A stretch of 64,000 nt of DNA, from contig NZ_FUWJ01000006.1 of assembly GCF_900167455.1 (NCBI RefSeq), positions 62,001 through 126,000 of the forward strand, in the 5' to 3' direction. The notes under the pieces were generated by a model that saw only the letters and a program-made list of their open reading frames with translations, had not been told where the DNA came from and searched no databases. This DNA is from Enhydrobacter aerosaccus (GTDB lineage: Bacteria > Pseudomonadota > Alphaproteobacteria > Reyranellales > Reyranellaceae). Shown here in pieces: positions 12,373 to 45,268 of this stretch. The position numbers and the translations under genes were made by a program. How positions within the stretch are numbered: position 1 is the first letter of the stretch; each line of letters opens with the position of its first letter.

Positions 12373-12594
12373 TCAGATATCGAGGATGGCGACGAGCTGA
12401 CCCTCGTCGATGGCATCGCCTTCGTTGACCTTGATTTCCTTGATGGTCCCGGCGGTCGGCGAGAGGACCGGGATCTCCATCTTCATGGATTCCAGAATCA
12501 TGATCTCGCCATCAGCGTCGACTTTGTCGCCGGCCTTGAGTTGGATCTTCCAGACATTGCCCGCGATCTCGGACTTCACGTTGACGACGGCCAT
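12373..12594 (-). CDS. Stand-alone biotin carboxyl carrier protein (BCCP-like)
   Basis: 73-residue biotinyl/lipoyl domain with the canonical ESMKMEIP biotinylation motif around Lys38. It is followed by the second half-barrel ending 'EGDAIDEGQLVAILDI'. Such minimal domains act as swinging arms for acyl-CoA carboxylases or decarboxylases; the large carboxylase genes in this window (37.5-44.4 kb) carry their own biotin domain. Its start overlaps the end of the upstream gene for an unrecognised duplicated protein by 19 bp, so the two are co-translated. The carboxylase partner is unknown. Confidence 0.88.
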   Translation of the reverse strand: MAVVNVKSEIAGNVWKIQLKAGDKVDADGEIMILESMKMEIPVLSPTAGTIKEIKVNEGDAIDEGQLVAILDI

Positions 12595-13403
12595 TCCCGG
12601 TGTTCCTCGCGCTCTTTCCGGCCAGCCTTTTCGGCCACGGCACGGGCCAAGGCAAGGGCAGAGCGGCCGGCTCGCGCGCCGAGCCGGTATGCCGTGTGGT
12701 TGAACGCGGAGATCGTTCCGTCCTGCAATGTGGACCGCCCGTCGCCGATGCGCGCGGACCGCGCCGCCACCGCGACGCCCGCGACCCCGGCCTCTTCCAG
12801 AACCGACAGGCCGAGGATGCCACCGTCATCGATGCCGGGACCTGCATCGTTGAAGAAGATCAGACGTGGCCTGGCCGGCGCCGTCGCATGGCCCGAGTTC
12901 AGTGCAGCGTGACTGCCCGTGGCGACTACGCGGTCCTTGTCCTCGGGGAGGAGTAATGAGGCCGAGTCGACGCACACGATATCGCCGACCAGGTGGCGAT
13001 CCTCGCCCTTGGGCGCCGGCGGACGATGGGGCCAATGTGCGGCTTTCAGCAACTCGACCGCGTCGCGGCAGGTCATGCCGATCGTCACGCCGCACAGCGC
13101 TGCCGGTGCATTGACGCGGCTGACGAGGCCGCGCTCGTACTGGTCCCTGCCGTCGCCGATGCGGCAGCTCTCGGTCGCCAGCGCGACCATGGCCATACCC
13201 AGCGATTCGGCATAGCCGAGGCCGCTGACACCGGCTTCGTCGAGTCCGATGCCCGCATCATGATGGATGGCGGCGCGCACGCCGGCCTTGGCCGACAGAT
13301 GGGCGGCATAGACGGCGCCGTGCGAACCGCCGACCACGACCGCGCCATCGGCTTCGCGCGGCAGCTTGGTCACACTGTCGAGGACGAGGACGGCGACGTT
13401 CAT
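12576..13403 (-). CDS. Unrecognised protein with an internal tandem duplication
   Basis: 275 residues; I do not recognise the family. Residues about 22-118 and 159-255 are repeats of one another in ungapped register with an offset of 137: GSH at 26-28 and 163-165, HDAG/NDAG at 48-51 and 185-188, RIGDGR at 81-86 and 218-223, followed by S-x-x-N. No signal peptide or membrane segment is seen. It precedes and overlaps the 73-residue biotin carrier gene, suggesting a joint role. The ATG at 13403 is chosen because upstream codons are Arg/Pro/Ser-rich shadow sequence running into the divergent DTW gene. The conserved His and Asp could be catalytic, but no reaction can be assigned. Confidence 0.75.
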   Translation of the reverse strand: MNVAVLVLDSVTKLPREADGAVVVGGSHGAVYAAHLSAKAGVRAAIHHDAGIGLDEAGVSGLGYAESLGMAMVALATESCRIGDGRDQYERGLVSRVNAPAALCGVTIGMTCRDAVELLKAAHWPHRPPAPKGEDRHLVGDIVCVDSASLLLPEDKDRVVATGSHAALNSGHATAPARPRLIFFNDAGPGIDDGGILGLSVLEEAGVAGVAVAARSARIGDGRSTLQDGTISAFNHTAYRLGARAGRSALALARAVAEKAGRKEREEHREWPSST

Positions 13404-13444: not shown

Positions 13445-14056
13445 ATGAGCGAACCGAGCGTCGACAACAAGGTGGCCGTCCTGATCCTGCAACATCCACA
13501 GGAGCAGGACCGCGTGCTGGGAACAGCGAAGCTGATCGTATCGACTCTCGCCCAGGCGCAGGTGGCGGTCGGCCTGTCGTGGCGCAATCTGGGCCATGCC
13601 TTGAAAGCACCGGCAGAGCCGAAAGAGTGGGGCGTGCTCTATCTCGGTTCGGCGCACACCGCGAAGGAGATGAAGGGGAAGGGGCCGCTGATTGCGCTCG
13701 ATCGCAAGGGCGAGCCGCTGGCCGACCAAGCGGCCGCACGGCAGGGGATCAAGGGACTTGTCGCGCTGGACGGGAATTGGGCTCAGGCCAAGGCCCTTTG
13801 GTGGCGCAATCCCTGGCTGACCAAGCTGCACCGCTTCGTCGTGGTGCCCGATGGCCCATCGCTCTATGGCGACCTGCGCAAGGAAGCCCGGCCGGATGCG
13901 GTATCGACCCTGGAAGCGGTGGCGCTCGCCCTGTCCGTGCTGGAGGGTGATGCCGCAGTGCGGGAGAAGATGCTGGCGCCGTTTCGCGCCTTGTTGGCCA
14001 AGGCGCGCGCCGCAGGTATCCGGGACTCGAAACGGGATCGTCGCGTCAGGCGTTAG
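13445..14056 (+). CDS. DTW domain-containing protein (TapT-like tRNA aminocarboxypropyltransferase)
   Basis: 203-residue protein with the core of the DTW/TapT-Tsr3 family: LILQHPQEQ near the N-terminus, 'GVLYLGSA', 'LVALDGNWAQAKALWW' where the D-x-x-W signature lies, and NPWL. Characterised members transfer the aminocarboxypropyl group of SAM to a uridine of tRNA (acp3U) or to rRNA. The family's usual N-terminal Cys motif is not evident here. Its ATG is 41 bp from the divergent duplicated-protein gene. It is followed closely by the ferredoxin oxidoreductase genes but is probably unrelated to them in function. Confidence 0.83.
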   Translation: MSEPSVDNKVAVLILQHPQEQDRVLGTAKLIVSTLAQAQVAVGLSWRNLGHALKAPAEPKEWGVLYLGSAHTAKEMKGKGPLIALDRKGEPLADQAAARQGIKGLVALDGNWAQAKALWWRNPWLTKLHRFVVVPDGPSLYGDLRKEARPDAVSTLEAVALALSVLEGDAAVREKMLAPFRALLAKARAAGIRDSKRDRRVRR

Positions 14057-14072
14057 TCCCTATAATCAGCGC

Positions 14073-16223
14073 ATGCTCGACCAACCCCAGGTTCCCGTCG
14101 CCCAACGCACCAACCCGGAACGGTCGTTCCGCGAGGAAGTGCGGGCGCTGCGGCTCAGCGATGGCGAGGTCTTTCGCGGCGAAGGCATCCTGGCCGTCAC
14201 CAAGGCGATCCTTCAATCCGGTGTCGCCTATGTCGGCGGTTACCAAGGTGCTCCAGTGTCCCACCTTGTCGATGTGCTGGTCGAATCGCAGGATCTGCTC
14301 GACGAGCTGGGGGTGCATCTAGAAACCTGCACCAATGAGGCATCGGCGGCGGCGCTGCTCGGTGCCTCGATCAATTATCCGATGCGCGGGTGCGTCACCT
14401 GGAAGTCCATCGTCGGCACCAATGTCGCGGCCGATGCGCTGTCCAACCTGGCATCGCCCGGCGTCGTCGGCGGAGCGCTCATTGTCGTGGGCGAGGATTA
14501 CGGCGAAGGGGCGTCGGTCATCCAGGAGCGCTCGCATGCCTATGCGCTGAAATGCTCGGTCTGGCTGATGGATCCGCGACCATCGCTGCCGACGATCGTA
14601 CGCTGTACGGAGAAGGCGTTCGAGCTTTCCGAGGCCTCCAACACGCCGGTGATGATGGAACTGCGCATCCGCGCCTGCCACGTCACGGGCGAGTTCGTCG
14701 CCAGGGACAACCAGCCGCCGGCCATCTCCCGCAACCATCGTCTCGATGCTCCTGCGCCGCATAATTACGACCGCATCTCCCATCCCCCCTCGACCTACGC
14801 CCATGAGAAGCTGAAGGTGGATGTGCGCCTCCCGGCCGCCCAGAAATTCATCGTCGAGCAGGGATTGAACGAGCTCTTTCCCGGTGAGCGCTCCGACCTC
14901 GGCGTCATCGTGCAGGGCGGCATCACCAACGTGCTGATGCGCGGGCTCGATCGGCTGGAGGTCGAGGGGAAGATCCCGACGCTGGTGCTGAACGTCACGC
15001 ATCCGCTGGTACCCGATCAGATTGCCGACTTCTGCAAGGGCAAGCGCGCCGTACTGATCGTCGAGGAGGGCGCGCCGGATTACATCGAACAGGCCGTCCA
15101 TGCGCTCCTGCGCAAGCGCGACATCGACACCAAGATCCACGGCAAGGACGTCCTGCCCATGGCGGGCGAGTACACCGCCGAGGTGATCACCGACGGCCTG
15201 TTGAAGTTCTTCGCGCAGTCGGCCAATGACATCGATCTGTCGCGGCCGCGCGAGCGCTTCGAAGCGGCGCGGGCGGGTCGCTCGGAAGCGCAGCGGATCC
15301 TCGGTGGACCGCTGCCGCTGCGGCCACCGGGTTTCTGCGTCGGGTGCCCCGAGCGGCCGGTATTCTCGGCGATCAAGCTGTTGGAACGCGAGGTCGGCAA
15401 GGTCCATATCTCCAGCGATATCGGCTGCCATTCCTTCGGCACGCTGGCCCCGTTCAATCTCGGCAACTCGATCCTGGGCTTCGGCATGTCGCTCGCCGCG
15501 GCCGGCGCGGTCGCGCCGGTAATGCAGAAGCGCACCATCTCGGTGATGGGCGATGGCGGGTTCTGGCACAACGGCCTGCTGAGCGGCGTCGCCTCGTCGA
15601 TGTTCAACCGCGGCGACCGGGTTCTGGTCATCATGCAGAATGGCTACACCTCGGCCACTGGCGCTCAGTTCATCCCGAACACGTCTGGCAATCGCCGCGA
15701 CGGCGAGACGACCTCCGACATCGCCACCACGCTGAAGGCGATGGGGGTGAAGTGGCTGCGCACCATCCGCACCTACAATGTCGGCACCATGCTGAAGACG
15801 CTGCGCGAGGCGATGAGCACGGACCAGGCCGGCCTGAAGGTGATCGTGGCGGATGGCGAGTGCCAGCTTGCGCGTCAGCGTCGGATCCGGCCGCAGATCG
15901 CCGCTCAGCTCAAGCGCGGCGAGCGCGTTGTGCGCACGCGCTATGGTGTCGATGACGATGTTTGCACCGGCGATCATTCCTGCATCCGGCTGTCGGGTTG
16001 CCCGTCGCTGGTGGTCAAGCCCAGCCCCGATCCCCTGCGCTCGGACCCTGTAGCGCATGTGAACAACGGTTGCCTCGGCTGCGGTCTGTGCGGCGAGGTG
16101 GCGGATGCAGCGGTCCTTTGCCCATCCTTTTTCAAGGCCGACATCGTGCAGAATCCGGGCTGGTGGGATCGCCTGAAATGGCGTCTGCGTTCGGCGGTGA
16201 TTGGAGCGATGGCGGGTGCCTAG
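14073..16223 (+). CDS. iorA: Indolepyruvate:ferredoxin oxidoreductase, alpha subunit
   Basis: 716-residue thiamine-diphosphate subunit. The N-terminal pyrimidine-binding domain begins VAYVGGYQGAPVSHL, the TPP motif GDGGFWHNG with its downstream Asn (MQNGYTSATGAQ) lies near residues 490-525, and the C-terminus has iron-sulfur ligands CTGDHSCIRLSGCP and CLGCGLCGEV with a final Cys. The enzyme oxidatively decarboxylates aryl pyruvates (indolepyruvate, phenylpyruvate) to arylacetyl-CoA using ferredoxin. The ATG at 14073 is chosen; the open frame extends upstream into the DTW gene. The beta-subunit gene overlaps its stop codon. Confidence 0.9.
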   Translation: MLDQPQVPVAQRTNPERSFREEVRALRLSDGEVFRGEGILAVTKAILQSGVAYVGGYQGAPVSHLVDVLVESQDLLDELGVHLETCTNEASAAALLGASINYPMRGCVTWKSIVGTNVAADALSNLASPGVVGGALIVVGEDYGEGASVIQERSHAYALKCSVWLMDPRPSLPTIVRCTEKAFELSEASNTPVMMELRIRACHVTGEFVARDNQPPAISRNHRLDAPAPHNYDRISHPPSTYAHEKLKVDVRLPAAQKFIVEQGLNELFPGERSDLGVIVQGGITNVLMRGLDRLEVEGKIPTLVLNVTHPLVPDQIADFCKGKRAVLIVEEGAPDYIEQAVHALLRKRDIDTKIHGKDVLPMAGEYTAEVITDGLLKFFAQSANDIDLSRPRERFEAARAGRSEAQRILGGPLPLRPPGFCVGCPERPVFSAIKLLEREVGKVHISSDIGCHSFGTLAPFNLGNSILGFGMSLAAAGAVAPVMQKRTISVMGDGGFWHNGLLSGVASSMFNRGDRVLVIMQNGYTSATGAQFIPNTSGNRRDGETTSDIATTLKAMGVKWLRTIRTYNVGTMLKTLREAMSTDQAGLKVIVADGECQLARQRRIRPQIAAQLKRGERVVRTRYGVDDDVCTGDHSCIRLSGCPSLVVKPSPDPLRSDPVAHVNNGCLGCGLCGEVADAAVLCPSFFKADIVQNPGWWDRLKWRLRSAVIGAMAGA

Positions 16224-17721
16224 GCCGATCACGATCCTGGTCGGCGCCTTGGGCGGCGATGGCGGCGGCGTGCTGTGCGACTGGATCGTTGCCGCCGCTC
16301 ACGCCCAGGGGCTGGGCGTGCAGGCGACGCAAATTCCCGGTGTCGCGCAGCGCACCGGAGCCACGACCTACTATCTCGAGGTGATGCCGACACCCGGTCC
16401 GGCGCCGACGGCGCTGGCGCTCAATCCGGCGATCGGCGAGGTCGATGTGGCGCTGGCGACGGAGCTTCTCGAAGCCGGCCGCATGATCTTCAATGGCTTC
16501 GTCAGCCCCGACCGCACCACGCTCGTCGCCTCCACGCACCGGGTGCTGGCGATCGGCGAGCGCGCGGCGATGGGCGACGGCAGCTTCGATGTCGGCCGGC
16601 TGCTGCGCGCTGTGAAGGAGCGCAGCAAGGAACAGATCCTGTTCGATATGGATCAGGCCGCCGAGGAGTCTGGCGGTGTCCTCAATGCCGTTCTGTTGGG
16701 CGCGCTGGCCGGGTCGGGGAAATTGCCCATACCGGGACCGGCCTTCGAGGCGGCCATTCGCGAAGGTGGCAAGTCCGTCGATGCCAATCTTGCCGGCTTC
16801 GCCTTCGGTCGCGGCCATGCGCGAGGGGAACTGGCTCAGGCCGTTCGGGAGCATCGTAAGCGCCGGGCGGCATCGAATGGCGTCGAGGATCTGATCGAGC
16901 GAGCCCGCCAGTCGTATCCCGTCAGCAGCCTGGACGTGGTGGAGGAGGGGATTCGGCGGTTGGCCGCCTACCAGGATCGGTCCTACGCGGCGCTCTATCT
17001 CGATCGGCTCGACGCCATCCACGGCCTTGGATCGGCGGATCTGCTGCGCGATGTCGGCCGCCATCTCGCGGTGCGCATGTCGTTCGAGGACGTCATCCGC
17101 GTCGCCCAGGCGAAGACGTCGCGGGAGCGGCTGGTGCGGGTACGGACCGAGGTGCGGGCCAAACCGACCGAACCGGTCGAGATCACGGAGCATTTCAAGC
17201 CGGGCATCGAGGAGATCTGCGCCATCCTGCCGCCAGGGGTGGCGCGGCGGATCTTGGCTTGGGCCGAGCGCAGCGGGCGGCTGGGCAAGTTCCACATCTC
17301 GATGCATGTGCGGACCACGACGATCCTGGGCTTTGCTCGCCTGCGCGTGGTTGCCGGCCTGCGCTGGTGGCGTCCGCACAGCTTTCGCTATGTCGAGGAG
17401 CAGGCGGAGATCGAGCGCTGGCTCGCTTCGATTCGAGCCGCCCATCCGCTGAATGTCGATCTTGCCCGGGAGACCGCCGAACTCGCGCGCCTCATCAAGG
17501 GCTATGGCGACACCTACAAGCGCGGACTGGGCAACTATCGGGAGATCGTCGCCCAGGTCGTGGCGCCGGCTCTTTCCGGGCGCCTGTCGCCGAAGGTTGC
17601 CGCCGATGCCGTCGCGAATGCCCGTGTCGCCGCCCTGGCCGATCCCGAAGGACAATCGCTCGCCAAGACTCTGGCTGCGATCTCCGCTTCGGGCGTTGTC
17701 GTGCGTCAGGCGGCCGAATAG
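16216..17721 (+). CDS. iorB: Indolepyruvate oxidoreductase subunit beta family protein, extended form
   Basis: About 501 residues, more than twice a minimal IorB. Residues 1-200 form the gamma-type catalytic domain: 'LVGALGGDGGGVLCDW' with the CoA/TPP-contacting loop and QIPGVAQRTGATTYY. The remaining 300 residues are the C-terminal extension found in proteobacterial enzymes (DUF6537-like), with a conserved Arg/Lys-rich end. The start is probably the GTG at 16216, which has GGAG nine bases upstream and overlaps the iorA stop; a TTG at 16201 is also possible. It forms the heterodimer with IorA and heads directly into two thioesterase genes. Confidence 0.87.
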   Translation: MPRPITILVGALGGDGGGVLCDWIVAAAHAQGLGVQATQIPGVAQRTGATTYYLEVMPTPGPAPTALALNPAIGEVDVALATELLEAGRMIFNGFVSPDRTTLVASTHRVLAIGERAAMGDGSFDVGRLLRAVKERSKEQILFDMDQAAEESGGVLNAVLLGALAGSGKLPIPGPAFEAAIREGGKSVDANLAGFAFGRGHARGELAQAVREHRKRRAASNGVEDLIERARQSYPVSSLDVVEEGIRRLAAYQDRSYAALYLDRLDAIHGLGSADLLRDVGRHLAVRMSFEDVIRVAQAKTSRERLVRVRTEVRAKPTEPVEITEHFKPGIEEICAILPPGVARRILAWAERSGRLGKFHISMHVRTTTILGFARLRVVAGLRWWRPHSFRYVEEQAEIERWLASIRAAHPLNVDLARETAELARLIKGYGDTYKRGLGNYREIVAQVVAPALSGRLSPKVAADAVANARVAALADPEGQSLAKTLAAISASGVVVRQAAE

Positions 17722-17727
17722 CGCTGC

Positions 17728-18177
17728 ATGCCGACGAGCCGACCGCCAAAGGTGGACGTCGCCGCGCTGGCCGCACGCGATGCCTTCTGTCGCGACCTCG
17801 GGATCGAATTGGTCGAAGCTCAGCTCGGGCGGGCCGTTACGCGGGTCCGGATCGAGCCACGCCACCTCAATTTCAACGGATCGGGACACGGGGGCCTGAC
17901 CTTCACGCTGGCCGATGCGGCCTTCGGTTTGGCCTGCAATTCCCATGGCATGGCTGCAGCCGGTGTCGACGTGCACATGATCTACAATCGCGCGGCGCGG
18001 CCCGGAGACGTCCTCATTGCCACGGCGGTCGAGATATCGCGCTCGGCCAGCCTGTCGCATTATCGAATCGATGTCGCTCGCGCTGACGGCAAGCTGGTCG
18101 CGGCCATGACCGGGACCGCCTTCACCAGCGGCAATCCTCACGAGATCAAGGACGATGCCCCTCACCAGCCATCATGA
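17728..18177 (+). CDS. PaaI family thioesterase
   Basis: 149-residue hotdog thioesterase. HLNFNGSGHGGLTFTLADAA contains the PaaI signature, with the HGG turn and catalytic Asp. PaaI enzymes hydrolyse phenylacetyl-CoA-type arylacetyl thioesters. It starts 6 bp after iorB and overlaps the next thioesterase by 23 bp, so all are in one operon. The context suggests that it acts on the arylacetyl-CoA produced by IorAB, either as an overflow valve or to yield the free arylacetate. Confidence 0.88.
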   Translation: MPTSRPPKVDVAALAARDAFCRDLGIELVEAQLGRAVTRVRIEPRHLNFNGSGHGGLTFTLADAAFGLACNSHGMAAAGVDVHMIYNRAARPGDVLIATAVEISRSASLSHYRIDVARADGKLVAAMTGTAFTSGNPHEIKDDAPHQPS

Positions 18178-18574
18178 AATCACCGTGGAATGGGGCGACT
18201 GCGACCCCGCCGGCATCGTCTACTACCCGTCCTATTTCCGCTGGTTCGATCAGGCGACCTATCGCCTGTTTCTCGCGGCGGGTCTCAAGCGCGACGATGT
18301 CAGCACCGGCCAATGGAAGGAAGGCACGCCGCTGGTCGCCGCCGAATGCAGCTTCCGCCGGCCGTCCCAGCATGGCGAGAGGCTGGTGATCGAGAGCCAG
18401 GTCGAGAAGTTCGGCCGTACCTCCTTCACCGTGCGGCACGTCTTTCGCGACCTGACGGGCGCCGTCGCTGCGGAAGGCACGGAGACCCGCATCTGGGCCC
18501 GCAAGGAAGGCGACGCGCGCTCGCTGAAGGCCGTTCCCATGCCGGAGGGCGTGCGGCGCAAGCTTGGTGGCTGA
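18155..18574 (+). CDS. Acyl-CoA thioesterase (4-hydroxybenzoyl-CoA thioesterase/YbgC type)
   Basis: 139-residue hotdog protein with the 4HBT/YbgC signature 'VEWGDCDPAGIVYYPSYFRWFD', including the catalytic Asp of D-x-A/G-G-x-x-x. It overlaps the PaaI gene by 23 bp in another frame. Candidate substrates are aromatic or short acyl-CoAs; with IorAB upstream, an arylacyl-CoA is likely. Two thioesterases of different subfamilies in tandem is unusual. Confidence 0.9.
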   Translation: MPLTSHHEITVEWGDCDPAGIVYYPSYFRWFDQATYRLFLAAGLKRDDVSTGQWKEGTPLVAAECSFRRPSQHGERLVIESQVEKFGRTSFTVRHVFRDLTGAVAAEGTETRIWARKEGDARSLKAVPMPEGVRRKLGG

Positions 18575-37534: not shown

Positions 37535-39421
37535 TCAGGCTGCGGCTTCCGTCGCCAGAGTCAACAGAACGGTGCGATTGCTCACCTGCTGCCCCTCCTG
37601 CACCGCGATCGATTCGACCCGCGCATCAAAGGCGGCCTTGAGCTGATGCTGGATCTTCATGGCCTCAAGAACGATCATGGTCTGGCCTTTGATGACGGTG
37701 TTGCCGGGCGCGACCTTGACTGAGACGATCCGTCCGTCCATCGGCGCCCGGAGCTTGCCGTCGCTGCCGGCCGCAGCAGCCGCGGGCGGCATGTAGGTGC
37801 GATCCTCGAAGCGCACCGTATGGCCATCGAGATCGACGATTATCTGGCGGCCGTCGATATGGAACGGGAGCGTGGCGGGAACCGGAGTGGTCGCGGCCAC
37901 CGTCATCGCGCGCTCGACATCGCCCACAGCCAGCTTGATTGGCGTCGGCTCCGGATTGGAATTGCGCCAGCCGCGGAAGGCGGGCGGATAGCGCTTCGCC
38001 GACTCGTGCCACAGGAGTGAGGCGGCGAGCTGCCAGTGCTGATCCGTGACCTCTGGTGGCTTCAGCGCATCGCCGGCGAAATAGCGGCCGATGAAGGCTG
38101 TCGTGGCCTGGCCGGCAGCGAATGCCGGGTGCTCCAGCAGGCGGATCAGGAAATGCCGGTTGGTCGTCGGGCCAAGGACGACGGTCTCCTGCAGGGCGCG
38201 CACGAGCCGGGTGCGGGCCTGCTCGCGTGTGGCGCCGTACGCAATCACCTTGGCGATCATGGGATCGTAGAAGGGGGAAATGGCGAGTCCGTCCGTCATG
38301 CCATGATCGATGCGGATGCTCGGACCGCTGGCCGGCCGCCAGACGTCAATGCGCCCCGTCTGCGGCAGGAAGCCGGCGTAGGGATCCTCGGCATAGAGGC
38401 GGACTTCAATGGCATGGCCGTCGAGCCGGATATCGGCCTGTGACAGCGGGAGGGCCTCGCCACGCGCGACGCGGATCTGCCACTCGACGAGATCGAGGCC
38501 GGTGATCGCTTCGGTCACCGGATGCTCGACCTGCAGGCGGGTATTCATCTCCAGGAAGTAGAATGCACCATCGCTGCCGAGCAGGAACTCGACCGTGCCC
38601 GCGCCGCGATAGCCGACGGCCTTCGCGGCCGCCACGGCGGCGGCTCCCATGCGCTGTCGCAGATCGGGATCGACGGCGGGCGAGGGCGCTTCCTCGATCA
38701 CCTTCTGATGGCGGCGCTGCACCGAGCAGTCGCGCTCGCCGAGATGGATGACATTGCCCTGGCTATCGGCGAAGACCTGGATCTCGACATGGCGTCCGTC
38801 GATTACGGCCTTCTCGAGGATCAGCTCGCCGGAGCCGAAGGCATTCTCTGCCTCGGCGCGCGCCGTGCGGATGGCTTCAGCAAGTTGCGCTTCCTGCTCT
38901 ACCAGACGCATGCCGCGCCCGCCGCCACCGGCGGCCGCCTTGACCATCACGGGCAGGCCGATCTTGCGCGCCTCCTGTTCCAGCGTTGCGTCACTCTGGT
39001 CCGCGCCCTGGTATCCCGGCACGCACGGGACGCCAGCCTCGATCATACGCCGCTTGGCGGCTGCCTTGTTGCCCATGGCTGCGATGGCGCTGGCCGGCGG
39101 TCCGATGAAGACGAGCCCCATCTTCTCACAGGCGCTGGCAAAGCGCTCGTTCTCGGACAGGAAGCCGTACCCCGGATGGATGGCGTCGGCTCCCGTCTGG
39201 CGAGCCGCATCGAGGACGCGGTCGATGTCGAGATAGCTCTCGCCAACCGGAGGTGGCCCTATGCGGACTGCCTCATCGGCAAAGGCGACGTGCGGCGCCT
39301 CGCGATCGGCGTCGGAATAGGCGGCGACGGTGCGATAGCCCATCGCCTTGGCCGTGCGCATGATACGCCAGGCGATCTCGGCACGGTTGGCGACCAGGAT
39401 CTTGCTGAAGGATGTCGTCAT
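37535..39421 (-). CDS. Acyl-CoA carboxylase alpha subunit: biotin carboxylase + biotin carrier (AtuF/LiuD-like)
   Basis: 628 residues: biotin carboxylase (ILVANRAEIAWRIMRTA start, ATP-grasp with MVKAAAGGGGRGMRLV, EMNTRLQVEHPVTE) over about 1-450, then a linking BT region, then a biotinyl domain with EAMKIQHQL near the C-terminus (Met-Lys-Ile rather than Met-Lys-Met). It carboxylates its own biotin for transfer by the beta subunit at 42785-44401. Within this gene order it corresponds to AtuF (geranyl-CoA carboxylase) or LiuD (methylcrotonyl-CoA carboxylase). The ATG at 39421 overlaps the hydratase stop by 4 bp. Confidence 0.9.
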   Translation of the reverse strand: MTTSFSKILVANRAEIAWRIMRTAKAMGYRTVAAYSDADREAPHVAFADEAVRIGPPPVGESYLDIDRVLDAARQTGADAIHPGYGFLSENERFASACEKMGLVFIGPPASAIAAMGNKAAAKRRMIEAGVPCVPGYQGADQSDATLEQEARKIGLPVMVKAAAGGGGRGMRLVEQEAQLAEAIRTARAEAENAFGSGELILEKAVIDGRHVEIQVFADSQGNVIHLGERDCSVQRRHQKVIEEAPSPAVDPDLRQRMGAAAVAAAKAVGYRGAGTVEFLLGSDGAFYFLEMNTRLQVEHPVTEAITGLDLVEWQIRVARGEALPLSQADIRLDGHAIEVRLYAEDPYAGFLPQTGRIDVWRPASGPSIRIDHGMTDGLAISPFYDPMIAKVIAYGATREQARTRLVRALQETVVLGPTTNRHFLIRLLEHPAFAAGQATTAFIGRYFAGDALKPPEVTDQHWQLAASLLWHESAKRYPPAFRGWRNSNPEPTPIKLAVGDVERAMTVAATTPVPATLPFHIDGRQIIVDLDGHTVRFEDRTYMPPAAAAAGSDGKLRAPMDGRIVSVKVAPGNTVIKGQTMIVLEAMKIQHQLKAAFDARVESIAVQEGQQVSNRTVLLTLATEAAA

Positions 39422-40236
39422 TCGACGGCCCATCGGGGAGGCCGCTTTTCGGCAAAGGCGCGCAACCCCTCGGCGGCCTCGGGGCTGCGACGCGCTTCGG
39501 CGAACTTGTCGGCGGCGAAATCGAGCACCGACGACAATGGCTCGGTCCCGACCTTCATCACCACCGCCTTGGTAGCGGCATTGGCGAAGGGGGCGCAGCG
39601 GTCGACCTGCTTCAGCACCTCTTCGAGTTTGGCGTCGAGAGCGGCGCTATCCTTCACGAGATAGTGGGCGATGCCGAGACGATAGGCCTCCGGACCCTTG
39701 AAGCGAGCGGCCGTCAACGCGAGGTGCCGCGTCTGCGGCACGCCGATGCGAGCGGCCACGAACGGCGCGATCTGCGCTGGAACGATGCCGATCGCGGTCT
39801 CGCTCATGGCGAAGCCGGCATCCTCGGTGCAGATCGCGACGTCCGACACGCAGAGGAGACCGAAGCCGCCGGCGATGGCATAGCCCTCGACCGCCGCGAC
39901 GACGACCTGTGGCGCGGTGTTCACCAGCTCGAGGAAGGTGCCGAACTGGCGGTTGTTCACCGCGATCGGGTCCTTCTCGCCGGGCTTCGGCGGCTCGTTG
40001 AAGCTTTGCTCCATGTTCTTGAGATCGGCTCCGGCGCAGAAGGTGCCGCCGGCTCCGCGCAGGATCATCACCTTGATGTCCCGGCGATCGCGCAGGACCT
40101 CGAAGACGGAGCGCAGCTCGCCGATCAGGGTCGGGTTGAGCGCGTTCTTCACCTCGGGGCGATTCAAGGTGACGTAGAGCCGTGAGCGCTCGCGGCGCAG
40201 CAGCAGCGTGTCGTACTTGGGCGCGAAGTCGGACAT
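39418..40236 (-). CDS. Enoyl-CoA hydratase/isomerase family protein (AtuE/LiuC-like)
   Basis: 272-residue crotonase-fold protein. 'VMILRGAGGTFCAGADLKNME' forms the first oxyanion-hole strand, and 'AAVEGYAIAGGFGLLCVSDVAI' the second; 'FAMSETAIGIVPAQIAPFVAARIG' contains the usual catalytic Glu. In this operon it would hydrate the product of the carboxylase: isohexenylglutaconyl-CoA (AtuE) or 3-methylglutaconyl-CoA (LiuC). The ATG shares a base with the stop codon of the upstream acyl-CoA dehydrogenase and its own stop overlaps the alpha-subunit gene, so the three are translationally coupled. Confidence 0.9.
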   Translation of the reverse strand: MSDFAPKYDTLLLRRERSRLYVTLNRPEVKNALNPTLIGELRSVFEVLRDRRDIKVMILRGAGGTFCAGADLKNMEQSFNEPPKPGEKDPIAVNNRQFGTFLELVNTAPQVVVAAVEGYAIAGGFGLLCVSDVAICTEDAGFAMSETAIGIVPAQIAPFVAARIGVPQTRHLALTAARFKGPEAYRLGIAHYLVKDSAALDAKLEEVLKQVDRCAPFANAATKAVVMKVGTEPLSSVLDFAADKFAEARRSPEAAEGLRAFAEKRPPRWAVE

Positions 40237-41396
40237 CAGCGGTTCTCCCCCCGCGGCAACGTACCCATCATCTTGGAGATGATCTGCAGCATCACTTCGT
40301 CGGCGCCGCCGCCGATCGAAGCCAGGCGTGAATCCCGGAAGGCGCGGGCCGTCGGCGATTCCCAGAGATAGCCGGCGCCGCCCCAGTATTGCAGGCAGCC
40401 GTCGGTCACCAGCCGCACCATGCGGCCGGCCTTCAGCTTGGCCATGGAGGCGAGCAGGGTGACATCCTTGCCCTCGAGATATTCCTCGCAGGCGCGGTAG
40501 CAGAGGGAACGCACCAGCTCGATCTCGGTGCGCAGCTCCGCCAGCTTGAAATGAATCACCTGGTTGTCGAGCAGGGACCGGCCGAACACCTTTCGCTCGC
40601 GCGTGTACTCGATCGTCTCGTCGATCAGCCGTTCCATGCCGACGACGGCGCTGATCGCGCCCCACAGCCGCTCCTCCTGGAATTGCTGCATCTGGTAGAT
40701 GAAGCCCATGCCTTCCTGCCCGATCGTGTAACGGACGGGCACCTTCACCTCGTCGAAGAAGATCTGGGCGGTATCGGAACTGCGCATGCCGAGCTTGTCG
40801 AGCTTCTTCACGACCTGCACGCCCTTGGTCGTCATCGGCAGGACGATCATCGACTTGTTCTTGTGCACCGGCCCTTCGCCGGTGTTGGCCAGCAGACACA
40901 TCCAGTCGGCCTGGGTGCCGTTTGTGGTCCACATCTTGCCGCCGTTGATGACCCAGTCACCGCCCACCTTGCGGGCCGTGGTCTTCAGGGACGCCACGTC
41001 TGATCCGGCGCCGACCTCGGAAACGCCGAGGCAGGCGACATAGTCACCCGCAATCGAGGGGGCGAGGAATTCGCGCCGCAGCTCGTCGCTGCCGTGGCGG
41101 GCGAGGGCGGGGGTCGCCATGTCGGTCTGCACGCCGATCGCCATGGGCACCGATCCGCAATGGATGTGGCCCAGCTCCTCGGCCATCACCATGGCGTAGG
41201 AATAATCGAGCCCCATGCCGCCATATTCGGTGGGCTTGTTGATACCGAGTAGACCGGCATCGCCCAGAGCCTTGAAGACCTTGTGGGCGGGGAAGATTCC
41301 ATCCTCTTCCCATTGGTCGACATGCGGATTGATATCCTTGTCGATGATCGCCCGCAGCGTGCGGCGGATCTCTTCATGTTCCTGGGTGAACTGCAC
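40236..41396 (-). CDS. Acyl-CoA dehydrogenase (AtuD/citronellyl-CoA dehydrogenase-like), copy 2
   Basis: 386-residue FAD acyl-CoA dehydrogenase, strongly similar along its whole length to the adjacent 41599-42759 gene. ACLGVSEVGAGSDVASLKTT and 'WVINGGKMWTTNGTQADWMC' are the family signatures. The position of the common catalytic Glu (YEGT) reads IGGGADEV, as in isovaleryl-CoA and long-chain dehydrogenases, where the base is a Glu on helix G; QEERLWGA here can supply it. This suits 3-branched acyl-CoAs such as citronellyl-CoA. The start is a GTG at the conserved family position with a GAGGA ribosome-binding site. A 202-bp spacer with a palindrome lies upstream. Confidence 0.92.
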   Translation of the reverse strand: MQFTQEHEEIRRTLRAIIDKDINPHVDQWEEDGIFPAHKVFKALGDAGLLGINKPTEYGGMGLDYSYAMVMAEELGHIHCGSVPMAIGVQTDMATPALARHGSDELRREFLAPSIAGDYVACLGVSEVGAGSDVASLKTTARKVGGDWVINGGKMWTTNGTQADWMCLLANTGEGPVHKNKSMIVLPMTTKGVQVVKKLDKLGMRSSDTAQIFFDEVKVPVRYTIGQEGMGFIYQMQQFQEERLWGAISAVVGMERLIDETIEYTRERKVFGRSLLDNQVIHFKLAELRTEIELVRSLCYRACEEYLEGKDVTLLASMAKLKAGRMVRLVTDGCLQYWGGAGYLWESPTARAFRDSRLASIGGGADEVMLQIISKMMGTLPRGENR

Positions 41397-41450
41397 GGGT
41401 CGTTTCCTCTGTCGATCGCGTTCGATGCCGGTCAGCCACGTCGCGGGCTG

Positions 41451-41466
41451 GTTACCGGCCGGTAAC
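41451..41466. promoter_or_regulatory. Perfect 16-bp palindrome between the two acyl-CoA dehydrogenase genes
   Basis: GTTACCGG followed directly by CCGGTAAC, a perfect palindrome 54 bp upstream of the second dehydrogenase start, flanked by an AT-rich stretch (AAATAAATGGAAATTTAAT) in an otherwise GC-rich region. Its size and symmetry fit a TetR-type operator, suggesting an internal promoter for the distal part of the operon. Confidence 0.55.
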
Positions 41467-41598
41467 GCTTAAATAAATGGAAATTTAATGGAGCGAGGCT
41501 CGGCGAGCCGGAAAAGGCGATCATGCCGAACAGGATAGGCTGGCCGTACCTCGATTCCCGATTCCGGTCTTGAATGGCGGTGGCTTCGCCCGCGCCCA

Positions 41599-42759
41599 TC
41601 AGCGATTATCCAGCCGCGGCATGGTGCCCATCAGCTTGGAGATGATCTGCAGCATCACCTCGTCGGCACCGCCGCCGATCGAGCCCAGGCGTCCGTCGCG
41701 ATAGCTGCGCGCCACCGGGCTGTCCCACAGATAACCGGCGCCCCCCCAGTATTGCAGGCAGGCGTCCGAGACTTCGCGGCGCAGCCGACCGGCCTTCAAC
41801 TTGCCCATCGAGGCCAGCATGGTGACGTCCTTGCCGGCGAGGTAGTCCTCGCAGGCGCGATAGACGAGCGACCGCAGCGCCTCGACCTCGCTCTTGAGCT
41901 CGGCCAGCCGGAAATGGACGACCTGGTTGTCGAGCAACGGACGACCGAACACCTGACGCTCGCGCGTATAGTCGATCGTCGCGTTGATGATGCGCTCGCA
42001 GCCCATCAGCGTGCCGGCGCCGGCCCATAGCCGCTCCTCCTGGAATTGCTGCATCTGGTAGATGAAGCCCGATCCCGGCTGGCCGATCGTGTAGCGCACC
42101 GGCACCTTCACCTCGTCGAAGAAGGTCTGCACCGTGTCGGAGGCGCGCATCCCAAGCTTGTTCAGCTTCTTCACGATCGAGATGCCCTTGGTCTTCATCG
42201 GCACCACGATCAGGGATTTGTTCTTGTGCACCGGGCCGTCGCCGCTATTGGCAAGAAGACACATCCAGTCGGCCTGTGCGCCGTTGGTGGTCCACATCTT
42301 GCCGCCGTTGATGACCCAGTCGCCACCGACCCGGCGTGCCGTGGTCTTGATCGAGGCGACGTCGGAACCGGCGCCGGTCTCGGAGACGCCGAGACAGGCG
42401 ACGTAGTCGCCGCTGATCGACGGCGCCAGGAATTCCTGCCTGAGTTCATCGCTGCCGTAGCGAGCGAGTGCCGGCGTGGCCATGGAGATCTGCACGCCGG
42501 TTGCCATCGGGATCGAGCCGCCGTTCACCAGCCCCAGCGACTCCGAGCAGATCATGGCATAGGAGAAGTCGAGGCCCGAGCCGCCGAACTCGACGGGCTT
42601 GTCGACGCCGAGCAGTCCGGCATTGCCCATCTTCTTGAACAGCTCGTGAGCCGGGAACTGGCCTTCCCTTTCCCATTCGTCGACGTACGGATTGACCTCG
42701 CGATCGATCAGCGTCTTCCAGGTCTGGCGCAGCGCCTCATGTTCCGGCGTGAATTTCAT
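41599..42759 (-). CDS. Acyl-CoA dehydrogenase (AtuD/citronellyl-CoA dehydrogenase-like), copy 1
   Basis: 386 residues, same length and near-colinear with the downstream dehydrogenase; it opens MKFTPEHEALRQTWKTLIDR. ACLGVSETGAGSDVASIKTT and 'WVINGGKMWTTNGAQADWMC' are intact; again IGGGADEV replaces the YEGT catalytic site and QEERLW offers the helix-G Glu. In the atu pathway this enzyme converts citronellyl-CoA to geranyl-CoA; in the liu pathway the equivalent is isovaleryl-CoA dehydrogenase. The ATG matches the paralogue; the open frame upstream runs into the carboxylase gene and is rejected. It lies 25 bp after the carboxylase beta gene. Confidence 0.92.
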   Translation of the reverse strand: MKFTPEHEALRQTWKTLIDREVNPYVDEWEREGQFPAHELFKKMGNAGLLGVDKPVEFGGSGLDFSYAMICSESLGLVNGGSIPMATGVQISMATPALARYGSDELRQEFLAPSISGDYVACLGVSETGAGSDVASIKTTARRVGGDWVINGGKMWTTNGAQADWMCLLANSGDGPVHKNKSLIVVPMKTKGISIVKKLNKLGMRASDTVQTFFDEVKVPVRYTIGQPGSGFIYQMQQFQEERLWAGAGTLMGCERIINATIDYTRERQVFGRPLLDNQVVHFRLAELKSEVEALRSLVYRACEDYLAGKDVTMLASMGKLKAGRLRREVSDACLQYWGGAGYLWDSPVARSYRDGRLGSIGGGADEVMLQIISKLMGTMPRLDNR

Positions 42760-42784
42760 CCTGTCGTTTCCTCTTTGTCTTGCG

Positions 42785-44401
42785 TCACATCCGGGCGACG
42801 CCGAAGGTGATCGGATTGAGCGGACGCACCATCGATTCGCGAGCGATCGAGAGCGTGAAGGCCAGGACCTTGCGGGTGTCGCGCGGATCGATGATGCCGT
42901 CGTCCCACAGGTGCGCGGTGCCGTAGAGCGCGGTCGACTCGCGTTCGAACTGGTCGACAATCGCCTTGAACATCTTGTCGATCTGTTCGCGCGGCGGCTC
43001 CTTGCCTTCGCGCAGGAACTTCTGTTCGGTCACGGTCTTCATCACACCGGCGGCCTGCTCGCCGCCCATCACGGCGGTACGGCTGTTGGGCCAGGCGAAG
43101 ATGAAGCGCGGATCGTAGGCGCGGCCGCACATGCCGTAGTTGCCGGCGCCGAAGCTGCCGCCGATCACGATGGTGATCTGCGGCACCGTCGCGTTGGCGA
43201 CCGCCTGGATCATCTTGGAGCCATGCTTGACGATGCCGCCGCGCTCGGCCTCGGTGCCGACCATGTAGCCGGTCGTGTTCTGCAGGTAGACGATCGGCGT
43301 GCCCTGCTGGCAGCAGAGCTGGATGAACTGGGCCGCCTTGACGGCGCCCTTCGTCGTGATCGGTCCGTTGTTGCCGATCAGCCCGACCGGTTCGCCCTCG
43401 ATCTCGGCCCAACCGCAGATCGTCTGCTGGTCGAACAGGCCCTTGAACTCGAGGAAGTCGGAGCCGTCGACCAGGCGCGCAATCACTTCGCGGACGTCAT
43501 AGGGATCCTTGTGCGAGGGCGGGACGACGCCACACAGCTCGTCGATATCGTACAGCGGCTCCTTGAAGGACTTCGCTGTCCTGGGAGGCAGCTTGTCGTT
43601 CCAGTGCCACTTGGCAATCACTTCTCGCGCCATGCGGATGCCGTCGGCGTCGTCCTCGGCCATCCATTCGGCGACGCCCGAGACGGTCGCATGCATTTCC
43701 GCGCCGCCCAGCTCCTCGTCGGTGGCAATCTCGCCGGTCGCGGCCTTGAGCAACGGCGGGCCGGCCAGGAACACCTTGGCCTGATTGCGCACCATGATGA
43801 CGTAATCCGACAGGCCGGGAAGGTAGGCGCCACCGGCCGTCGAGGAGCCGTGCACCACCGTCACCTGCGGAATGCCGCGCGCCGACATGCGCGCCTGGTT
43901 GGCGAAGCCGCGGCCGCCCGGCACGAAGATCTCGGCCTGATAGAGCAGGTTGGCGCCACCGGACTCGACCAGGTTCACAACTGGCAGCTTGTTCTCCAGC
44001 ACGATCTGCTGCACGCGCTGGCCCTTGCGCTGGCCGGAGGGGGCGACGGTGCCGCCTTTGATGGCGGAGTTCGACGCGGTGACGATGCAGCGCACCCCTT
44101 CGACATAGCCGATGCCGGAGACCGAGCCGCCGCCGGCGCTCGAACCGTCCTTGTCGTCATGCATGCGATAGCCGGCGAGCGGCATCAACTCCAGGAACGG
44201 CGCACCGCGGTCGAGCAGCAGCGCGATGCGCTCGCGCGGCATCAGCTGCTTGCGCTTGCGGAAGCGCTCGCGGACCTTCTCGGACGCCGCCTGCACGCTG
44301 GCCTCGGCATCGCGAAATTCCTGGATCGCGGCCAGCATGCGCTCGCGGTTCTTCCTGAACTCGTCGCTGTTGCGGTCGATCTGGCTCTCGATGATGGGCA
44401 T
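42785..44401 (-). CDS. Acyl-CoA carboxylase beta subunit (AtuC/LiuB-like carboxyltransferase)
   Basis: 538-residue carboxyltransferase. N-terminal half: 'RFRKRKQLMPRERIALLLDRGAPFLEL', LVESGGANLL and HGSSTAGGAYLPGLSDY; C-terminal half: PVGLIGNNGPITTKGAVKAAQFI, 'NTTGYMVGTEAERGGIVKHGSKMI', and GGSFGAGNYGMCGRAYDPRF for CoA and carboxybiotin binding. This is the methylcrotonyl/geranyl-CoA carboxylase branch. Its biotin-bearing partner is the alpha gene four genes downstream. Operon order and the AtuD-like neighbours favour geranyl-CoA over 3-methylcrotonyl-CoA, but the pocket residue that separates them was not aligned here. Confidence 0.91.
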   Translation of the reverse strand: MPIIESQIDRNSDEFRKNRERMLAAIQEFRDAEASVQAASEKVRERFRKRKQLMPRERIALLLDRGAPFLELMPLAGYRMHDDKDGSSAGGGSVSGIGYVEGVRCIVTASNSAIKGGTVAPSGQRKGQRVQQIVLENKLPVVNLVESGGANLLYQAEIFVPGGRGFANQARMSARGIPQVTVVHGSSTAGGAYLPGLSDYVIMVRNQAKVFLAGPPLLKAATGEIATDEELGGAEMHATVSGVAEWMAEDDADGIRMAREVIAKWHWNDKLPPRTAKSFKEPLYDIDELCGVVPPSHKDPYDVREVIARLVDGSDFLEFKGLFDQQTICGWAEIEGEPVGLIGNNGPITTKGAVKAAQFIQLCCQQGTPIVYLQNTTGYMVGTEAERGGIVKHGSKMIQAVANATVPQITIVIGGSFGAGNYGMCGRAYDPRFIFAWPNSRTAVMGGEQAAGVMKTVTEQKFLREGKEPPREQIDKMFKAIVDQFERESTALYGTAHLWDDGIIDPRDTRKVLAFTLSIARESMVRPLNPITFGVARM

Positions 44402-44404
44402 GGT

Positions 44405-45268
44405 TCAGCCACCCAACACTTTGGGCGTGACGGCGAGATGGAAGCCGTTGAAAGACTGCGACCGATCGGTCGCGGGCAAATCGACCGAGCGGTTGGCCAG
44501 CGGCACACCACCGTCGATACGAATCTCGGTCCCGGTGATATAGGCGGCAGCTTTGCTCAGCAGGAAACAGACTGCGGCAGAAACCTCGCTCTCCGTGCCC
44601 AGCCGGCCCAAGGGACAGTAGCCCTTGAGCTTGGGTATCTGCTCCTTGAACTCGCCCGTATAGGTGTCCATGCCAGACGAGGCGATCCAGCCCGGCGCAA
44701 CGGAATTCACGCGTACGCCGGAAACGGCCCATTCGTAGGCGAGCGTCATGGTGAGGTTGGCCATGCCCGCGCGGGCCGCGCCGGTATGGACCATGTTGGG
44801 GAAGCCGTTACGGTAATCGGCCGTCATGTTGACGATCGAGCCGCCATGCTGCTGCATCGATTGGGTATAGACCTCGCGACTGACGAGGAAGCCGCCGGTC
44901 AAGTTGTTGCGCACCACGACGTCGAAGCCCTTGGCGCTGAGCTGCGCGGCCGGCGAGGGGAATTGCCCGCCGGCATTGTTGAACAGCCCGTCGATGCGGC
45001 CGTTCCTGGCGACGATCCGAGCAATCGACTCCTTCACCTGCGCTTCCTCGCGGATGTCGAAAGTATGCGTCTCGCAGGTGTGGCCGGCTGCTTCGATTTC
45101 AGCCTTCACCGCTTCGAGCTTCTCGATCTTGCGGCCGGCAATGACGACATGGGCTCCCAGGGCGGCGAGCTCGTGCGCGGTGCAGCGGCCGATGCCGCTG
45201 CCGCCGCCCGTGACGAGGACGGTCTGGCCCTGGAAGAGTCCCGGTGCAAAGACCGAGCGATACGACAT
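44405..45268 (-). CDS. SDR family oxidoreductase, first gene of the atu-like operon (AtuB-like)
   Basis: 287-residue SDR beginning MSYRSVFAPGLFQGQTVLVT. TGGGSGIG binds cofactor and NNAGG is present; the active-site segment 'NMTADYRNGFPNMVHTGAARAGM' has Thr in place of Tyr four residues before an Arg, so the YxxxK pair is not intact, resembling dienoyl-CoA-reductase-type SDRs. It starts the operon, 3 bp ahead of the carboxylase beta gene, which is where atuB sits in Pseudomonas. A 22-bp palindrome 43 bp upstream matches the MerR-type sites at 58.1 kb. Confidence 0.88.
   Translation of the reverse strand: MSYRSVFAPGLFQGQTVLVTGGGSGIGRCTAHELAALGAHVVIAGRKIEKLEAVKAEIEAAGHTCETHTFDIREEAQVKESIARIVARNGRIDGLFNNAGGQFPSPAAQLSAKGFDVVVRNNLTGGFLVSREVYTQSMQQHGGSIVNMTADYRNGFPNMVHTGAARAGMANLTMTLAYEWAVSGVRVNSVAPGWIASSGMDTYTGEFKEQIPKLKGYCPLGRLGTESEVSAAVCFLLSKAAAYITGTEIRIDGGVPLANRSVDLPATDRSQSFNGFHLAVTPKVLGG

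Follow-up and report, generated by a model that had tools for sequence, protein, structure and literature searches.

A biotinyl carrier gene beside a two-unit protein gene

Is a protein that is encoded together with a free-standing biotinyl carrier part of a biotin-dependent enzyme, or does its family do something else? This question is raised by two genes on the minus strand of the window, the stretch of 64,000 nucleotides analyzed here. P0001 (12576..13403) encodes a two-unit protein of 275 amino acids, and P0002 (12373..12594) encodes a single-domain biotinyl carrier of 73 amino acids that resembles BLAP of B. subtilis. The original prediction had taken this combination to suggest a biotin-dependent enzyme, or a partner of one, of a type not recognized before.

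The start of P0001 at 13403 is the start common to most relatives. The frame is a real coding sequence: across 33 genomes of the genus to which the window belongs, it could be aligned over nearly its whole length, with dN/dS values of 0.14-0.39. For P0002 the values were 0.05-0.19, and both genes are under purifying selection; the ratios of both genes are rough because dS is near saturation. Three named Reyranella MAGs (L148, L152 and L156) have the same gene order as the window, and we infer that the window's genus is Reyranella. The overlap of the two genes described earlier (12576..12594, minus strand, 19 bp) is real at the window locus but is not conserved, being present in 2 of 28 measured loci of the genus: the spacing is -19 in the window and one other member, and +7 to +25 bp in the other 26. 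A divergent DTW-domain gene (13445..14056, plus strand; PF03942, 1.1e-29) provides the context of the pair and lies outside it.

Downstream of the DTW gene, positions 14073-18574 contain a divergent indolepyruvate-ferredoxin-oxidoreductase-like pair (an IorA-like protein of 716 aa and an IorB-like protein with DUF6537); genes for two 4HBT thioesterases come next. Genes matching this region in size and order adjoin the P0001/P0002 pair in one of the named Reyranella MAGs (L156).

Internal duplication and conserved residues of P0001

When P0001 was compared with itself at all offsets, the best ungapped offset was 137 (score 179, with 36 for the runner-up). At this offset residues 22-118 are identical to their partners at 37 of 97 positions without a gap, and the predicted duplication is thereby borne out. 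The gapped local self-score was 184, compared to 33.9 ± 6.3 (maximum 64) for 2000 shuffled sequences. The motifs GSH, (H/N)DAGxGxD and RIGDGR were found in both units as described. The repeat is real, but the unit length of about 97 residues given for it was an underestimate, since the conserved unit is somewhat longer (about 118 aa, approximately residues 3-120 and 140-257). Self-alignment and unit alignment place the N-terminal unit (residues 3-120) at 13044..13397, and self-alignment places the C-terminal unit (residues 140-257) at 12633..12986, both on the minus strand.

In a tree of 66 units, all N-units were set apart by one branch (94/96) and all C-units by another (97/93), each group forming one clade. 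Judged from their sequences, N- and C-units stem from one ancient duplication. Two single-unit members of 131-132 aa (L034:3571-3969 and L065:8486-8881) branch apart from N- and C-units; they possibly represent the form before duplication or a secondary loss.

The AlphaFold model of the whole protein reached a pLDDT of 96.9 and a pTM of 0.91 (66 family sequences), and the N-terminal unit folded separately reached a pLDDT of 97.5. DSSP assignments of the model together with residue counts were used to locate the conserved residues. In the N-unit, strand 22-28 ends in Ser27-His28 (13320..13325, minus strand), which is part of a strand-turn-helix element with the sequence GGSHG (helix 31-39). Asp49-Ala-Gly (13251..13259, minus strand) lies where strand 44-48 ends, Ile82-Gly83-Asp84 comes later than strand 71-75, and Asn98 directly follows strand 93-97. 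The C-unit model repeats this layout with Ser164-His165 (12909..12914, minus strand), Asp186-Ala-Gly (12840..12848, minus strand), Ile219-Gly220-Asp221 and Asn235, the first two being the counterparts of Ser27-His28 and Asp49. P0001 carries the features of its family, namely two units with SHG, DAGxG and IGD motifs and the conserved residues Asp146, Asn98 and Asn235.

Ser27 is present in all 82 sequences from outside the genus that have a residue at this position and in 33/33 from within. Asp49 was found in 83/85 and 33/33 sequences, Asp186 in 84/85 and 33/33, and Ser164 and His165 each in 85/85 and 33/33, respectively. His28 is present in 76/82 sequences from outside the genus, and 6/85 N-units have Tyr. 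A conserved His and a conserved Asp had been proposed as parts of a pseudo-two-fold active site. Asp, like Ser and Asn, is nearly invariant, and the two units do provide two equivalent conserved sets of Ser, Asp and Asn; the His of GSH, however, is not strictly invariant. Two members encoded in a DHDPS aldolase context (L133:9288-10112 and L153:9992-10822) carry GSYGG at the N-unit position of GSHGG, and His28 is therefore not essential in these members.

Each unit is modelled as a compact beta-alpha-beta domain with the conserved residues at or just past the C-terminal ends of the strands, which is the usual place of the active site in alpha/beta enzymes. With such a layout, the conserved residues of a unit may come together in space.

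Relationship to known families and folds

That P0001 is of an unrecognized type proved correct: Pfam gave sub-threshold matches only, NCBIfam and a phmmer search of the PDB gave no match, and the relatives on annotated plasmids are all labelled hypothetical protein. P0001 belongs to a family of alpha/beta proteins with two units that has no name and no close relative of known structure. Foldseek searches against the PDB with the whole protein and with one unit yielded no match below an E-value of 0.001, and no match to P0001 was obtained in a viral fold library.

Among the whole-domain matches that Foldseek gave for the unit, the best was to TA1206 of Thermoplasma (1qw2; 58 columns, probability 0.82, rmsd 2.6 Å, TM 0.38/0.44, E 0.33), which is a relative of DUF1805 by sequence. 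DUF1805 (PF08827) includes YunC of B. subtilis and TA1206 of T. acidophilum (PDB 1qw2). DUF1805 is also the Pfam family touched below threshold by the largest number of units (29/94, best 6.5e-4; also 7/13), and when 41 whole genomes of the order were searched with PF08827, a single match was returned, to a P0001 orthologue. The cut-off of 29.5 bits was not reached by P0001 (16.9), the first unit of A1 (19.6) or the best protein of the genus (22.3). Alignment of the unit family with hhalign to a small set, four plasmid DUF1805 sequences and TA1206, gave 26 columns with a probability of 21%; the set consisted of DUF1805 records located with a YunC seed sequence. By eye, GS(K/H)G...GYL and C-terminal G-x-x-x-GM stretches are common to both families, whereas the P0001 unit, with about 118 aa, has an extra DAG segment and is duplicated. 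Since sequence and structure point to DUF1805 independently, a relationship is plausible; all scores are below the cut-offs, and P0001 is not filed in this family. DUF1805 proteins are not known to have an activity. The literature yielded passing mentions of DUF1805 and nothing useful on the operon type described below, on YunC, or on apionate together with RuBisCO-like proteins. Because DUF1805 is the only tentative relative, a structure or activity of the P0001 family could inform DUF1805 too.

Other candidates were rejected. The nitrilase superfamily provided the top Foldseek matches of whole P0001 (E 0.01), but with a TM of 0.2 and an rmsd of 16 Å. RecA was returned by a PDB profile search in which each stretch scored 6-7 bits and the E-value was summed over fused repeats. 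Matches to Y-family polymerases (Pfam IMS, DinB and Pol eta) comprise a strand-helix motif of 27-30 residues only, which we take to be a shared local motif; residues ~92-120 of P0001 superpose on the Y-family structures 4r8u and 4j9p with 0.4-1.6 Å and 33-37% identity, probably through this common local motif. An ORF of 1054 aa in L072, considered as a domain fusion, was judged to be read-through of a high-GC frame.

The alternative readings here and below are not mutually exclusive, and the probabilities that we attach to them do not have to add up to one. The family could specifically be a lactonase or esterase in which the TGSHGG elbow serves as nucleophile elbow with Asp49/Asp186 as partner. 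The invariant Ser between strand and helix fits this, as do local Abhydrolase_6 matches in 11/94 units and the sugar-acid and SDR contexts, where a lactonase step is expected. These matches are, however, below the cut-off (P0001 11 bits compared to 26.3), an alpha/beta-hydrolase or patatin fold is not among the Foldseek matches listed, and the protein has no separate catalytic His. We consider a lactonase quite unlikely.

The biotinyl carrier and its pairing with P0001

P0002 consists of a single PF00364 domain of ~70 aa (3.1e-17) with the (S/A)MKM motif, scores 82.9 bits against NF004547 (cut-off 75), and matches PDB 1z6h, BLAP of B. subtilis, with 5.5e-18. Lys38 in ESMKMEIP (12481..12483, minus strand) is the predicted site of biotinylation, the position of the motif in the sequence being that found in BLAP and BCCP. 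P0002 shares the length class, the single domain and ESMKMEIP with BLAP (YngHB), and differs from it in its company: BLAP adjoins acyl-CoA carboxylase genes, whereas P0002 adjoins P0001 and no carboxylase gene (PMC4016012 for BLAP). BLAP is biotinylated by BirA and is not modified by the lipoylation enzymes of B. subtilis (PMC4016012).

Neither a biotin carboxylase nor a carboxyltransferase gene adjoins the P0001/P0002 pair, the nearest being an acyl-CoA carboxylase operon 25 kb off. This operon is complete (window positions 37535-45268) and encodes an alpha subunit (628 aa) that carries an EAMKI biotinyl domain of its own, a carboxyltransferase of 538 aa, an enoyl-CoA hydratase, two acyl-CoA dehydrogenases and an SDR.

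Co-occurrence of the two genes across genomes gave a divided answer. The pair is adjacent and on the same strand in 33/33 genomes of the genus, but in 0/99 loci outside it; five plasmid loci outside the genus had no biotinyl gene near the family member. Altogether 37 genomes of the genus were searched, and 4 were without a P0001 copy; at least one of the four has a contig that is broken within the biotinyl gene. In 30/30 loci of the genus examined, the divergent DTW gene accompanies the pair. P0002-like proteins elsewhere are encoded apart from the P0001 family, some of them near carboxyltransferase-like genes.

The pair might represent a new and small type of biotin-dependent enzyme, with P0001 as the (de)carboxylating or transferring partner of P0002. 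Strict adjacency and same-strand order in the genus argue for this, as do the canonical ESMKMEIP of P0002, the biotinylation of BLAP by BirA (PMC4016012) and the remodelling of the C-terminal unit in the same lineage (see below). On the other hand, the 99 loci outside the genus have no biotinyl neighbour, showing that the family works without a biotinyl partner. In addition, P0001 has no meaningful sequence or fold similarity to carboxyltransferases, no gene for a biotin carboxylase or carboxyltransferase is adjacent, and P0002 could serve the 5 biotin carboxylases and 8 carboxyltransferase matches present at other sites in the genome. On balance, an enzyme of this kind seems to us very unlikely. 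The proposal of a biotin-dependent enzyme is consistent with the invariable gene pair in the genus but does not hold in general, the loci outside having catabolic neighbours instead. Since relatives outside the genus are without the biotinyl gene and the pair is without carboxylase or carboxyltransferase neighbours, such an enzyme would be at most lineage-specific. A version restricted in this way is highly improbable: in one lineage, presumably Reyranella, P0001, a two-unit alpha/beta enzyme from a fold class that has no characterized member, would have come to serve a free-standing biotinyl carrier as its dedicated partner, and its remodelled C-terminal site would handle a carrier-bound or carboxylated substrate without a classical carboxyltransferase.

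Alternatively, the two genes may merely be co-transcribed, P0002 serving as a general BLAP for other carboxylases and P0001 being unrelated to it. The P0002-like proteins whose genes lie apart from the family, in some cases next to carboxyltransferase-like genes, are consistent with this, and the adjacency does not extend beyond a single synteny block of the genus that includes the DTW gene. Nevertheless, the pair was kept in 33/33 genomes, with gaps of just 7-25 bp or an overlap, despite divergence of the proteins to 57-77% identity, and the acceleration of the C-terminal unit coincides with the pairing. We regard co-transcription alone as doubtful, although it retains an appreciable share of the probability.

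Distribution and operon context of the family

The family was found in 31/289 sampled genomes of the window's class, about a tenth, and in 6/399 genomes of a whole-phylum sample searched at a stricter cut-off. A scan of named genomes yielded 80 loci, chiefly from Alpha- and Betaproteobacteria. The same scan also returned Gammaproteobacteria, Minicystis (Myxococcota), Poribacteria, Latescibacterota, SAR324 and a Halobacteriales archaeon; the single odd phyla have to be read with care because several are MAGs. Haloarchaeal plasmids carry the family as well.

Neighbouring genes within eight genes of a family member were taken from codon-usage gene calls and clustered over 90 loci, and were identified by Pfam and NCBIfam searches with representatives. 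Closely related species were kept in these counts, and 4/90 loci are from Reyranella. An acetolactate-synthase-like (ALS-like) ThDP enzyme was encoded near the family gene at 50/90 loci, E1 alpha at 39/90 and E1 beta at 38/90, followed by SDR (20), IclR (17), TRAP subunits (10-12) and Bug receptors (11). Since the 6.8 Mb of the window genome contain just 8 ALS-like matches and 2 E1-alpha-like ones, proximity by chance is expected in a few per cent of cases at most. The operons in L066-L164 recurrently combine the ALS-like ThDP enzyme and lone E1 alpha/beta with TRAP, IclR and SDR genes, with no E2/E3 cluster seen alongside.

At other loci the neighbours are DHDPS together with MR_MLE, Fe-ADH, FMN-dehydrogenase and a tripartite transporter, or a citrate-synthase-like protein together with an AMP-ligase. 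The haloarchaeal neighbours include an OiaX-like RuBisCO-like protein, an OiaK-like kinase, an HpcH/HpaI aldolase, SDR, TRAP and IclR. OiaX-like (1.3e-153) and OiaK-like (3.7e-134) proteins recall the D-apionate/oxo-isoapionate pathway; their scores of 512 and 448 bits, however, are below the equivalog cut-offs of 700 bits, which points to a similar pathway only. The theme common to the neighbourhoods is the breakdown of oxo- and hydroxy-carboxylic acids, and the members of the family are most likely cytosolic enzymes of this catabolism. A nameless family present in about a tenth of the sampled genomes of the window's class thus sits in recognizable organic-acid catabolic operons, which makes its reaction and pathway directly testable.

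The family could instead have no enzymatic activity and serve ThDP/E1 enzymes as an accessory subunit, a scaffold or a sensor, with the biotinyl protein being served in this way here. Its close association in operons with E1 alpha/beta and ALS-like genes and its weak relation to DUF1805 would agree with such a role. Against this, the family is also encoded with unrelated catabolic enzymes (aldolase/MR_MLE, RuBisCO-like), a lone single-domain gene exists as well, and the conserved polar residues are placed in the model as they would be in an active site. An accessory role appears unlikely.

While the family is a frequent member of ALS-like/lone E1 alpha-beta operons outside the genus, such partners are absent beside P0001, and the window genome has no close ALS-like orthologue: its best matches to the partners are 30% (ALS-like) and 35-41% (E1 alpha). 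The family-level context may not apply to P0001 because close orthologues of the ThDP/E1 partners are missing from the window genome.

Changes in the C-terminal unit in the window's genus

Two positions of the C-terminal unit differ between the genus and its relatives. At position 198 (12810..12812, minus strand), P0001 has Gly, whereas Arg is found in 85/85 aligned relatives outside the genus and in 0/33 proteins within it (Gly in 20, Ala in 13). Position 226 (12726..12728, minus strand) is Leu in P0001 and in 33/33 proteins of the genus; outside, it is aromatic (Trp, Tyr or Phe) in 75/85. The presumed active-site residues are retained in the proteins of the genus. On the stem branch of the genus, C-units accumulated 0.90 changes per site and N-units 0.29. 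At the level of the sequences compared, the change in the genus is concentrated in the C-terminal unit, and Gly at position 198 in place of the invariant Arg puts P0001 in a divergent subfamily.

The explanation that we favour, tentatively and with a probability a little short of even, is that P0001 is an alpha/beta enzyme of catabolism, and that its second site was reshaped in the lineage in which the biotinyl gene became its neighbour. The family protein would act on a 2-oxo or hydroxy acid made or used by the neighbouring enzymes. Ser and Asp may be the residues of the chemistry, which could be a hydrolysis, for example of a lactone, or an isomerization, and Arg198 of the C-unit may hold a carboxylate or phosphate group. 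In the window's genus, the C-unit evolved fast and lost Arg198 and the aromatic residue at position 226, and the gene became locked to that of a BLAP-like biotinyl protein. The substrate of the genus protein may have changed, possibly to one presented by the carrier protein or used together with it, or its partner may be new. Biotin does not define the P0001 family, which is probably catabolic and has the biotinyl neighbour as a lineage-specific addition. The genus-specific pairing and the loss of Arg198 represent a natural experiment in which a catabolic protein gains a new partner.

A genus-type protein was also found on a Methylovirgula plasmid (L180:8007-8690). It has no Arg198, and its C-terminus is apparently truncated. 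SDR genes lie on either side of its gene, and a biotinyl gene is absent from the vicinity. Loss of Arg198 and pairing are therefore not strictly coupled, and the loss may predate the pairing.
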